NCBI GenBank assembly: GCA_944322785.1
Contig: CALUPW010000001.1
Coordinates: 310,001 to 374,000, forward strand
DNA from: Candidatus Gastranaerophilales bacterium
GTDB taxonomy: Bacteria; Cyanobacteriota; Vampirovibrionia; Gastranaerophilales; Gastranaerophilaceae
DNA: 64,000 nucleotides
Reading direction: 5' to 3'
Position numbers and translations under genes: made by a program. Position 1 is the first letter of the stretch; the number at the start of each line of letters is the position of its first letter. Of this stretch, positions 10,756-38,950 are shown piece by piece. A model generated the notes under the pieces. It saw only the letters and a program-made list of their open reading frames with translations, ran no database searches and was not told where the DNA came from.

Positions 10756-10770
10756 CCCCCCCCCCCCCCC
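10756..10770. repeat. Homopolymeric tract of 15 C
   Basis: Fifteen consecutive C lie between dut and the TM2-domain gene, about 60 bases before the chosen TM2 start. TTGTTT (10746-10751) and TATTCT (10771-10776) flank it at a 19-base spacing, so the tract would form the spacer of a poor -35/-10 pair. It is not inside a reading frame: a stop lies at 10803-10805 in the frame of the gene. Confidence 0.85.
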
Positions 10771-29445: not shown

Positions 29446-29478
29446 AAATTCCCGTCTTGCAAAGGGCGGGAATTTTTT
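29446..29478 (+). terminator. Terminator of hom-thrC
   Basis: AAATTCCCG and CGGGAATTT form a 9-bp stem with a 12-base loop, followed by TTT. It lies 6 bases after the thrC stop and just before the promoter region of pilin copy 1. Confidence 0.85.
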
Positions 29479-29519
29479 ATATAATAAAGGTTGTTTTATA
29501 TAAAAATAAGGAGCAAAAA

Positions 29520-29573
29520 ATGGTAAAAAAGCAGACTATGATTGAAATTCAGGGGGGGGGGGGCAACCCGTAA
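29520..29573 (+). CDS. Leader reading frame with G tract before pilin copy 1 (OFF phase)
   Basis: An ATG preceded by AATAAGGAGCAAAAA, the best ribosome site of the locus, opens a frame MVKKQTMIEIQ that runs into 12 G. With 12 G the frame ends after 17 codons (GGGGNP, stop). With 11 G it would join the long pilin frame. It is nearly identical to the leader at 37777 and related to that at 31169. The same start, peptide and tract occur before three pilin-like genes, so I read this as the 5' end of a phase-variable gene rather than as an independent peptide. Confidence 0.7.
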   Translation: MVKKQTMIEIQGGGGNP

Positions 29574-30654
29574 AACAGGCTCCTGTTGCGGTTTAACCTT
29601 ATGTCATTCTTCAGCCAAGGACAATTTAAGTCCAAAGATTGAAGAATTTTACGAAAAAATGAAACGTCATTCCGGACTTGATCCGGAATCTATCAATGCT
29701 GATAGAAACAGACTCCGGCTCGGGGGCCGGAGTGACGAAGGCGGTAAAATCATACCTTCTTCTTACCGTCACCCTGAACTTGATTCAGGGTCTATTAAGA
29801 TAGGAAAAGATTCCGGCTCGGAGGCCGGAATGACGGGTACAGAGTCAAACATCCTTCACCGCAAAGTCCAGAGTGACGAAGGCAGCAGGACGCCATGCAC
29901 CACCTTCCGTCACTCTGACGGAAGTCAGAGTCTGTCAATGCCGGTTAATTCAATCCGGTACTTTTGGCGTCAAAAGTCCCGCAAAGCCGCCTTCACCATG
30001 GCAGAAGTTCTGATAACGCTTGGAATAATCGGCATAGTAGCCTCAATGACTTTGCCATCATTATATATAAAAAATCAGAACAAAGCTCTTGAAGCTTCGT
30101 TAAAAAAGAATTATTCAGTGCTTCAACAGGCACTTGACATGTATCAGGCTCAAAACGGATTTCGTTTGAAGTCGGATGATTTGGATACTCATGAATTGAA
30201 GCCGGCTATTCTTCCATATTTTAATGTGTTAAATGATTGCGGAGTGGGCACAGAACTTTCAGGGAAAGCATGTATTCCAAATACGGAAGAAAATAAATCA
30301 AATATATACAAATCATATAACGGTAATACGATTACTCTGGCTGTATTCGATGACGGACAGTTTGTTTTAAATGACGGAAGCCTGATTTTGCTGGAAAATG
30401 TTCGTTATGGATACGGTGTATTAATTTCAGTAGATGTAAACGGGTATAACAAACGACCGAATAGATGGGGGCATGATTTATTTACATTTCAGCTTATGAA
30501 AGATGGTGAACTTCTGCCTATGGGAGCCCCGGAAACTCAATGGCATAATGAAAATACATATTGTTCCACTACTTCGACAAATAATATGAACGGCGCCGGC
30601 TGTACCTACAAAGCATTGACTGATAAAGATTATTTTAATAATCTGCCAAAATAA
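29542..30654 (+). CDS. Pilin-like protein, copy 1, with palindrome-derived leader (phase variable, frame-shifted from its best start)
   Basis: The open frame as given starts from a weak TTG; the likely ON start is ATG 29520 if the G tract loses one base. Residues 1-150 are a leader translated from palindromic repeats. From residue 151 comes a type IV pilin/pseudopilin N terminus, A|FTMAEVLITLGIIGIV, with Phe+1 and Glu+5 and a helix of about 22 residues, after SRKA. The mature domain (about 200) has four or more cysteines (NDCGVG, KACIPN, YCSTTS, GCTYKA). Prepilin peptidase would cleave before Phe 151, leaving a leader far longer than usual. An internal ATG (29938) would give a normal 18-residue leader but has only a weak ribosome site. 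Confidence 0.75.
   Translation: MKFRGGGATRKTGSCCGLTLCHSSAKDNLSPKIEEFYEKMKRHSGLDPESINADRNRLRLGGRSDEGGKIIPSSYRHPELDSGSIKIGKDSGSEAGMTGTESNILHRKVQSDEGSRTPCTTFRHSDGSQSLSMPVNSIRYFWRQKSRKAAFTMAEVLITLGIIGIVASMTLPSLYIKNQNKALEASLKKNYSVLQQALDMYQAQNGFRLKSDDLDTHELKPAILPYFNVLNDCGVGTELSGKACIPNTEENKSNIYKSYNGNTITLAVFDDGQFVLNDGSLILLENVRYGYGVLISVDVNGYNKRPNRWGHDLFTFQLMKDGELLPMGAPETQWHNENTYCSTTSTNNMNGAGCTYKALTDKDYFNNLPK
29552..29563 (+). repeat. Poly-G tract (12) in pilin copy 1
   Basis: Twelve G directly follow CA of the leader glutamine codon. The tract is within the predicted coding part, so a length change of one base alters the reading frame of the whole pilin gene. Confidence 0.9.
29665..29737. repeat. Composite palindrome, CGTCA/TGACG family (pilin copy 1, first unit)
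   Basis: The unit runs CGTC, hairpin ATTCCGGA-cttga-TCCGGAAT, a CTATCAA/GATAG middle, hairpin ACTCCGGC-tcggg-GCCGGAGT, GACG. Outer CGTCA and TGACG are complementary. It is read in frame as part of the pilin leader (RHSGLDPESINAD...). Confidence 0.85.
29767..29835. repeat. Composite palindrome, CGTCA/TGACG family (pilin copy 1, second unit)
   Basis: Same architecture as the first unit: ACCCTGAA-cttga-TTCAGGGT, then ATTAAGATAG, then ATTCCGGC-tcgga-GCCGGAAT, TGACG. A further hairpin (ACTCTGAC-ggaa-GTCAGAGT, about 29912-29931) lies just before the pilin domain. Confidence 0.85.
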
Positions 30655-30659
30655 AAAAT

Positions 30660-31066
30660 AAAGCAGCCCGTAAGCCGTGTTCTGTTTATAGATAATCATC
30701 TGTCTGGTATTGCGGTTACCCGCAATCTCTAGCGATATTTCTGAAGTCGGCGGACAGCCTTTATAACCTTCAATTTAATCTTGCATCCTATCGGGGGTTG
30801 CCTGGCCGGTGCTTCTCAACACCGCCGGTGAGCTCTTACCTCGCCGTTGCACCATCGCCTGTGACTTTCGTCCATCGGCAGTCTAACATTTCTGTGGTCC
30901 TATTCCACCGGCTCACGCCGTCCGGAGTTTCTCCGGCGATTTGTCCTCGGATGCACGGACTTTCCTCACATTGTTGACCGGCTGCCAAATTTTGACAGCC
31001 ACCTGATTTTTTACAAAATTGTAACAATATCCGTCAGCGCAATGCGCGATTATCCGGCTGCTTTAT
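30660..31066 (-). ncRNA. rnpB: RNase P RNA (type A)
   Basis: On the minus strand the sequence carries the hallmark GAGGAAAGTCC near the 5' side and ACAGAACACGGCTTACGGGC near the 3' end, with AGGTAAGAGCTCACC in between. The ends pair as P1 (AAAGCAGCC with GGCTGCTTT). The length of about 405 bases is normal for type A RNase P RNA, the ribozyme that matures tRNA 5' ends. The promoter is visible just upstream. The RNA lies between pilin copies 1 and 2 and ends 6 bases beyond the convergent pilin copy 1 stop; no protein gene should be called on it. Confidence 0.97.
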
Positions 31067-31168: not shown

Positions 31169-31243
31169 GTGAAAATGCAGACTATGATTGAGTTTCAGGG
31201 GGGGGGGGTACCTTCAAACACCTTTTTATCAGGAGAATTTTAA
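31169..31243 (+). CDS. Leader reading frame with G tract before pilin copy 2 (OFF phase)
   Basis: GTG 31169 (or ATG 31175), after AGGGGAATTAGAGAC, opens a leader KMQTMIEFQ that runs into 11 G and stops after 24 codons (...SGEF). It shares QTMIE and the tract with copies 1 and 3. The frame of the pilin is open without a stop back to the tract, but offset by two, so 12 or 9 G would join them. Confidence 0.6.
   Translation: MKMQTMIEFQGGGVPSNTFLSGEF
31198..31208 (+). repeat. Poly-G tract (11) in pilin copy 2
   Basis: Eleven G follow CA of the leader glutamine codon, at the same position as in copies 1 and 3. Here the predicted in-frame lengths are 9 or 12. Confidence 0.9.
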
Positions 31244-37776: not shown

Positions 37777-37830
37777 ATGGTGAAAAAGCAGACTATGATT
37801 GAAATTCAGGGGGGGGGGGGCAACCCGTAA
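37777..37830 (+). CDS. Leader reading frame with G tract before pilin copy 3 (OFF phase)
   Basis: ATG 37777 follows AACAGGAGCAATAA and opens MVKKQTMIEIQ, then 12 G and a stop after 17 codons. This is the same arrangement as at 29520, with only a silent change in codon 2 (GTA to GTG). Loss of one G would join it to the pilin frame. Confidence 0.7.
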   Translation: MVKKQTMIEIQGGGGNP

Positions 37831-38950
37831 AACAGGCTCCTGCTGCGGTTTAGACTTATGTCATAATTTCAAAATTACATGTCTTGAAGCCTCAGGCGAA
37901 AAATTTCTGCGTCATTCTGAGCTTGACTCAGAATCTATCAATGCTGATAACAACAGACTCCGGCTCGGGGGCCGGAGTGACGAAAGCGGTAAAATTATAC
38001 CTTCGTCTTTCCGTCACCCTGAACTTGTTTCAGAATCTCTTAATACATCAACAGATTCCGGCTCGGAGGCCGGAATGACGGGTGCAGAGTCAAACATTCT
38101 TCACCGCAAAGTCCGAAGTGACGAAGGTCGTAAACGCACCACCTTCCGTCACTCTGACGGAAGTCAGAGTCTGTCAATGCCGGTTAATTTAATCCGGCAC
38201 TTATGGCCGCAAAAGTCCCGCAAAGCCGCCTTCACCATGGCAGAAGTTTTGATAACACTCGGTATAATCGGAATAATAGCCGCAATGACACTGCCTGCAC
38301 TGATACAGCGAAAACAGGAAAAAGTAACCGTAACCCGCCTTAAAAAAGTGTATTCAATTCTTTCACAAACCTACGACCGTTTGTTTTATGAAAACGGTTC
38401 CGATGCGACAGGCTGGGGGCTTGGAGATATGTATGAACAAGAAAGTCATGAAATTTTAGCCAATAAATTTCTGCCTTATCTGAATGTAATACAAAATTGT
38501 GTCGGAAAAGACAGTACTTATGTTGCAAAACATTGTACAAAGATTTATAACTACTCTCCGTCATATTCAAGCGTTCGTCTGATTGACGGAGTAACCGTAA
38601 TATTCCGGTCATGGTATGGCGATTGTCGTATGAATTTGGGTAACGAACCTCATTTAAAAAATGTTTGCGGGGAAATATTGGTTGATATAAACGGGACAGG
38701 ACGTCCTGACTTGCCGGGAAACGATATATTTACTTTTTACCTGACAAAAAACGGAATATATCCAATGGGAACAGAATTTGATACTCGAAATTCTTTTAAA
38801 GAAAAATGCAACAAAGATATTGAATGGGGAGCAAGTGTAGGCGATATGCAAAACGGTATGGGCTGTACAGCATGGGTGTTGTATAAAGAAAATCAGGAGT
38901 ATCTCAGGTGTTCTGATTTGGACTGGAACGGCAAAAATAAATGCAGATAG
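37799..38950 (+). CDS. Pilin-like protein, copy 3, with palindrome-derived leader (phase variable)
   Basis: As in copy 1, the open frame starts from a weak TTG and passes through the G tract. Residues 1-144 are the leader (ATRKTGSCCGLDLCHN, then palindrome-derived segments such as RLRLGGRSDE and DSGSEAGMTG). Phe+1 is residue 145 in A|FTMAEVLITLGIIGIIAAM, followed by the usual helix. The mature domain differs from copy 1 (QNCVGK, KHCTK, GDCRM, NVCGE, GMGCTA, cysteine-rich). Copy 1 and 3 leaders differ by indels of 12 and 6 bases, which keep the frame. An internal ATG (38177) would give a short normal leader. Confidence 0.75.
   Translation: MKFRGGGATRKTGSCCGLDLCHNFKITCLEASGEKFLRHSELDSESINADNNRLRLGGRSDESGKIIPSSFRHPELVSESLNTSTDSGSEAGMTGAESNILHRKVRSDEGRKRTTFRHSDGSQSLSMPVNLIRHLWPQKSRKAAFTMAEVLITLGIIGIIAAMTLPALIQRKQEKVTVTRLKKVYSILSQTYDRLFYENGSDATGWGLGDMYEQESHEILANKFLPYLNVIQNCVGKDSTYVAKHCTKIYNYSPSYSSVRLIDGVTVIFRSWYGDCRMNLGNEPHLKNVCGEILVDINGTGRPDLPGNDIFTFYLTKNGIYPMGTEFDTRNSFKEKCNKDIEWGASVGDMQNGMGCTAWVLYKENQEYLRCSDLDWNGKNKCR
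37809..37820 (+). repeat. Poly-G tract (12) in pilin copy 3
   Basis: Twelve G after CA of the leader glutamine codon, identical in position and length to copy 1; eleven or fourteen would be the in-frame lengths. Confidence 0.9.
37910..37982. repeat. Composite palindrome, CGTCA/TGACG family (pilin copy 3, first unit)
   Basis: CGTC, hairpin ATTCTGA-gcttgac-TCAGAAT, CTATCAATGCTGAT, hairpin ACTCCGGC-tcggg-GCCGGAGT, GACG. The same unit as at 29665 with base changes on both arms of the first hairpin (CCGGA to CTGAG type), suggesting that pairing is kept. Confidence 0.85.
38012..38080. repeat. Composite palindrome, CGTCA/TGACG family (pilin copy 3, second unit)
   Basis: CGTC, CCTGAA-cttgt-TTCAGAAT, a short spacer, hairpin ATTCCGGC-tcgga-GCCGGAAT, TGACG. 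Corresponds to the unit at 29767 and is also translated in frame. Confidence 0.85.

Follow-up and report, generated by a model that had tools for sequence, protein, structure and literature searches.

The locus

The window, a stretch of 64,000 nucleotides, belongs to a genome of 1.95 Mb (18 contigs, 99.75% complete) that, judging from its relatives, is probably metagenome-assembled, and it contains copies 1, 2 and 3 of a type IV pilin-like gene in which a run of G lies close to the start codon (Table 1). All tract lengths given here, including the 12 G of copy 1, are assembly consensus values; the chance expectation for nine-G matches in the window is 0.05. The prepilin cleavage/methylation motif of copy 1 opens a hydrophobic stretch, as in pilin-like proteins, and matches PF07963 (21.9 bits, cut-off 21.2) and TIGR02532 (18.5 bits, cut-off 16.3). 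Copy 2, which would be in frame (ON) at 12 or 9 G, encodes a pilin with N_methyl plus DUF6613 that runs to 32085, and the pilin frame of copy 3 occupies 37823-38950. Copies 1 and 2 are directly separated by a class A RNase P RNA gene of the opposite strand (30655-30989, -). The window also has a 15-G intergenic tract upstream of a dUTPase-like gene (10756-10770, -); no start codon with a Shine-Dalgarno sequence reads into this tract, which may therefore have a transcriptional effect or no role at all.

Table 1. Features of copy 1 and of the neighbouring tract-bearing copies, in window positions
Feature	Position	Strand	Basis
Terminator-like hairpin 3' of threonine-synthase-like gene (candidate)	29455..29471	+	consensus scan only
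Promoter-like TTGCAA-17-TATAAT before the pilin gene (candidate)	29457..29485	+	consensus scan, 10/12 matches
Shine-Dalgarno AGGAGC, 5' arm of complementarity with 29579-29584	29509..29514	+	sequence, comparative support, fold centroid
17-codon mini-ORF at 12 G, MVKKQTMIEIQGGGGNP, TAA 29571-29573	29520..29573	+	translation
12-G tract; 11 G would link ATG 29520 with the pilin frame	29552..29563	+
Leader-coding stretch of 142 codons that follows the tract, in frame with the pilin; repeat-derived	29566..29991	+
Anti-Shine-Dalgarno GCTCCT, complementary to 29509-29514	29579..29584	+	comparative, fold
Palindromic repeat GTCATTCCGGACTTGATCCGGAATCT in leader	29666..29691	+
Palindromic repeat unit in leader	29714..29737	+
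Palindromic repeat unit in leader	29812..29835	+
Internal in-frame ATG, rival start, without a well-placed Shine-Dalgarno	29938..29940	+
Mature pilin-like domain FTMAEVLITLGIIG..., N_methyl / GFxxxE motif	29992..30654	+	profile matches
Copy 2: 11-G tract after GTG/ATG start (31169/31175), OFF	31198..31208	+
Copy 3: 12-G tract after ATG 37777, OFF	37809..37820	+

Reading frames of copy 1

A preliminary description of copy 1 had proposed that one G fewer would join its best start codon to the pilin, and its statements about the sequence itself were borne out. The start at ATG 29520 reads AAGGAG-CAAAAA-ATG, with the Shine-Dalgarno sequence well spaced as described. Translation from this codon reproduced the early stop after 17 codons at 12 G, yielded a 377-aa product (MVKKQTMIEIQGGGATRKTGSCCG...) that continues through the pilin at 11 G, and gave only 25 aa at 13 G. 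Copy 1 thus carries a slippage-prone simple repeat inside its coding region, the length of which sets the frame (11, 12 and 13 G correspond to 377, 17 and 25 aa). The pilin frame, said to be open back to the tract, has no stop from 29566 to its own terminator at 30652-30654. The F of FTMAEV is residue 158 of the 11-G product, so the leader, put earlier at about 157 residues, has exactly 157 residues before the cleavage site; the ON form therefore lacks the short leader of type IV pilins.

A family of tract-bearing pilin genes

The architecture seen in copy 1 recurs in the genome and the genus, and is therefore beyond chance. The genome has 45 tracts of at least nine G and nine occurrences of the near-identical start motif AGACTATGATTGA...CAGGGGGG, and among its 64 prepilin-motif matches 36 have a same-strand G tract within 900 nt upstream. 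Twenty-eight copies are intact from tract to pilin, and about eight further copies have broken leaders. Across the genus, 136 intact copies were collected from 13 genomes, and of 68 genomes sampled across the family 55 have tracts of at least 10 G, with up to 124 in a single genome; these genus and family counts use one genome per species and cover part of each genome's tracts. The start peptides are of several types (MVKKQTMIEIQ, METIDMTGLQ, MKTQTMRGIAP and others). Related loci were found in Candidatus Gastranaerophilales genomes, and a search of viral contigs gave no matches. One genome of the same genus (G001, 99% complete) has zero tracts of at least nine G.

In 83 of the 136 intact copies there is no ATG, GTG or TTG in the pilin frame between the tract and the pilin motif, so production of these pilins requires that the tract be read through.

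One out-of-frame phase predominates

When the phase of a copy is defined as the number of bases by which its start codon misses the pilin frame, 110 of the 136 genus copies would be in frame with one G fewer and 10 with one G more, and 16 already are. A drift-like spread of phases is usual, though not strictly defining, for SSR-mediated phase-variable genes. The even spread expected from drift was not found here (16 ON, 110 and 10): at an expectation of one third, 16 or fewer ON copies among 136 has P = 6e-9 if kinship is ignored, a value that overstates the independence of these related copies. Free slippage would leave about a third of the copies ON and populate both OFF phases, so the observed 16, 110 and 10 call for selection or mutational bias in addition to slippage, or for another mechanism.

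It is the phase, and not the length, that is kept. The modal tract is 12 G where the ON state needs N = 2 mod 3 (75 of 86 copies), 13 G where it needs N = 0 mod 3 (18 of 29) and 11 G where it needs N = 1 mod 3 (16 of 21), which rules out a single mutational equilibrium length as the source of the 12-G mode, since the modal length moves to 13 or 11 with the frame. When G counts were shuffled among copies (20,000 shuffles), agreement in phase reached at most 83, as against the 110 observed. Phase is also preserved where boundary substitutions alter the G count.

Genera g1 and g3 favour one off-phase, and g8 favours the opposite one. The g3 genome (G027) has the off-phase of the window's genus in 32 of 43 copies, with 10 ON, whereas the g8 genome (G049) has the opposite off-phase in 28 of 32, with 3 ON, its tracts being mostly G10 and ON at G11. 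The preliminary description had put its emphasis on copy 1; the more notable feature is that one out-of-frame phase is common to nearly all copies.

Tract length differs between close relatives

Differences in repeat length between otherwise identical sequences exist among the relatives of copy 1. For example, one genome (G011) holds a 12-G OFF locus (L200) and an 11-G ON locus (L249) with flanks identical over 25+60 nt, in another (G182) tracts of G10 and G12 share an identical upstream flank, and a locus in genome G004 has 99.7% identity over 1 kb to one in genome G005 from which it differs in both tract and phase. Among 99 pairs in the genus with near-identical flanks, 21 differ in tract length, nearly all by one G; the pairs overlap, a few copies supply many of the differing ones, and three pairs belong to a methyltransferase-like gene. 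Several orthologous pairs that are 5-10% diverged share equal tract length. The tracts do change, then, but their phase either comes back to a single value or stays there.

Explanations for the tract

The reading that best accounts for the tract-bearing pilin family, to which we assign a probability of roughly 0.7 from comparison of the sequences, is DNA phase variation with an OFF majority. Copy 1 is one of about 36 type IV pilin-like genes of the genome with poly-G between the start and the prepilin signal, and in these genes replication slippage would alter the tract by single Gs and shift a good start codon into or out of the pilin frame. At the assembled 12 G copy 1 is OFF and would produce only the 17-residue peptide, whereas 11 G would turn it ON and yield a prepilin whose 157-residue leader would be removed by prepilin peptidase. 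If most copies are OFF and one G from ON, each cell would be predicted to express a small, changing subset of the pilin repertoire. The sequences show the tract and the frames, the family with its conserved phase, the length differences between copies with identical flanks and, for most copies, that the tract has to be read through; the rates of slippage, the expression of the genes, removal of the long leader and any benefit to the cell are inferred. Given the family-wide evidence, slippage in the tract is the best reading of copy 1 as well, and the interpretation in the preliminary description is supported in part; the long leader to which that description drew attention is atypical of the system.

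The skewed phase, its retention across G counts and the orthologues with equal tracts count against plain slippage. One candidate for the uniform off-phase is deletion-biased slippage together with selection that disfavours expression in the majority of cells; a second is a translational effect of the complementarity to the Shine-Dalgarno sequence described below. The G10-G11 tracts of C. jejuni are deletion-biased (PMC4085013), which by analogy would fit an OFF state one G above ON in the genus of the window.

The same skew could instead reflect programmed recoding, in which the tract is fixed and RNA polymerase slippage or ribosomal frameshifting skips one base, predicting a low, constitutive pilin output from the 'OFF' DNA of all copies. 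The predominance of one out-of-frame phase (110 of 136; 32 of 43 in g3), kept across G counts, speaks for this proposal, as does the fact that the leader frame stays open although nearly all copies are nominally OFF. Recoding would account for the uniform phase inside a genus; one slip direction does not, however, explain all genera, because g8 favours the phase opposite to that of g1 and g3 (28 of 32). There are copies whose flanks are identical and whose G numbers differ, in-frame copies are too common to be errors (16 of 136), and the tRNA-Gly(CCC) anticodon loop is an ordinary 7 nt (TTCCCAA), so there is no sign of a tRNA that reads GGGG and a sufD-like tRNA-Gly of this kind is ruled out. 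We consider recoding unlikely on balance. The corresponding view of the tract as a built-in recoding or translation switch, with a selected out-of-frame phase and a mini-ORF stop just before the anti-Shine-Dalgarno arm, is likewise doubtful, and the odds are similarly low that pilins are made family-wide at a low level through slippage in RNA synthesis or on the ribosome.

Assembly is a further potential source of uniformity, if near-identical repeats were collapsed to one length and a mixture of phases was thereby masked. The compared genomes are mostly metagenome-assembled (where an origin is stated), and four copies in genome G000 share 20-nt flanks on both sides. The ratio nevertheless stays at 110/16/10 if the count is restricted to contexts that differ at 35+35 nt, a check that limits, and does not remove, the concern that assemblers collapse repeats, and several species, each assembled separately, have the same phase, as does another genus. 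It is thus quite improbable that the uniform 12 G is largely an artefact. The least probable of the readings is translation from a downstream start (ATG 29938 in copy 1), with the tract and leader forming an upstream repeat that has no coding role. This start would leave a normal 18-residue leader, and the longer leader is rich in repeats and little conserved as protein. Such a start cannot hold for the family, since 83 of the 136 copies have no start codon between the tract and the pilin, although for copy 1 itself it may, with low probability, apply; ATG 29938 is absent from some long-leader copies and has no placed Shine-Dalgarno sequence, and in long leaders the pilin frame contains 0 stops, compared with 280 and 534 in the other frames, in copies that were chosen for being open.

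Leader and palindromic repeats

Most relatives have 6-40 residues between the tract and the pilin, and some have an ordinary short leader past the tract (e.g. YNSLLTG-FTMAEV). The long leader of copy 1 is therefore probably a derived trait and no basic part of the system. It is a local, repeat-derived elaboration; the long leaders in this genome are strings of one palindromic repeat. The palindromic repeat family has 65 occurrences genome-wide, which, by our reading of their positions, lie mostly in the leaders of tract-bearing pilin genes.

Long-leader copies in G000 have 0 stops in 2,804 codons of the pilin frame and 127 and 286 in the other frames; the genus-wide stop counts given above refer to intact copies with leaders of at least 30 residues. 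Because such copies were selected for being open, these counts are a description and not a test. Leader differences are spread nearly evenly over codon positions (807/872/1014), those of the pilin body less so (123/76/256, from only 5 body pairs), and the lengths of most gaps in the leader alignments cannot be divided by three. Although open, the leader is thus hardly conserved as protein, and its being a conserved domain is ruled out. This pattern would agree with a tolerated expansion of repeats in a segment that would be removed.

Complementarity across the tract

The Shine-Dalgarno region can pair over at least 5 bp with a stretch within 35 nt past the tract in 115 of the 136 copies, as compared with 23-49 copies for the same pairing at other distances, and two positions beside the GGAG core covary (p <= 4e-4). 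Relative to the pilin, the anti-Shine-Dalgarno arm is spread over all three frames (37/33/33), a sign that it is conserved as nucleic acid. In 94 of these 115 copies the stop of the common off-phase precedes the arm, whereas the stop of the rare off-phase falls in or after it in 109 of 115; in G049, the stop of its own common phase is again before the arm (14 of 18). A possible lead from these positions is a putative function in which the arm could close over the Shine-Dalgarno sequence when a gene is in the common off-phase. Shared ancestry accounts for part of the complementarity pattern. The helix count in G049 is barely above its control (18 vs 12) and that in G027 is near it (13 vs 8), and the local folding energy at copy 1 is not above that of shuffled sequences (z 0.67).

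Relation to known systems

The family resembles the poly-G contingency genes of Campylobacter and Neisseria, which also have intragenic G tracts, early stops when off-frame and tens of loci per genome. The number of phase-variable genes in a Campylobacter strain is 5-81, their tracts are mainly G9 (53%) and G10 (26%), and the share of ON genes in draft genomes is near neutral (PMC6321876). In the present case, most loci belong to a single family of pilin-like paralogues, the modal tract is longer and varies with the phase, ON copies make up 12%, and switching is predicted from sequence.

Opa proteins, outer-membrane barrels that are switched at a pentameric repeat, offer a second comparison, in that both are dispersed families of surface proteins whose copies are switched separately (a property predicted here from sequence). 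The genes described here differ in encoding pilin-like proteins, in using a G homopolymer and in having about three times more copies than the Opa family of Neisseria gonorrhoeae, which numbers about 11 phase-variable genes (PMC3745409).

Membership of the type IV pilins or pseudopilins is indicated by the FTMAEVLITLGIIG motif with A or G before F and by Pfam and NCBIfam motif matches above cut-off, whereas the body of the copy 1 protein received no family assignment; the leader of the copy 1 ON form, as noted, departs from the usual short one. Rickettsia palindromic elements and REP-like sequences are palindromic repeats that sit inside reading frames without breaking them. The repeats described here differ in being located in a leader, presumably removable, that belongs to a single gene family, and among the leaders looked at they are in the orientation of the gene.

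No literature on phase variation in Gastranaerophilales was found among open-licence papers, and dozens of pilin genes with a start-proximal run of about 12 G look like a large, previously unreported case of it. If this is correct, gut Gastranaerophilales, which are non-photosynthetic relatives of cyanobacteria, would own a very large repertoire of phase-variable surface proteins, and dozens of their pilins would each be one base from expression. In addition, the skewed phases make it testable what sets the phase of contingency genes: mutation bias, selection against expression, or a translational effect of stop position.

Other tract-bearing genes

Genes outside the pilin family also carry tracts, among them one glycosyltransferase-like and several acyltransferase-like genes, both kinds being often phase-variable elsewhere. 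The glycosyltransferase-like gene (L153 2523, -; G000:C4 near 173969) has G10 right after its start and is in frame. One acyltransferase-like gene (L171 3140, -; G000:C3 near 164852) is broken mid-frame by G12CAACCCGTAAAACAGCTCCT, a 32-nt unit that is also present in pilin genes, suggesting that the unit has been copied between the two. A further locus (L275; G005:C8:21200-31700) has three near-identical DNA-methyltransferase-like fragments with tracts of 9, 10 and 12 G.
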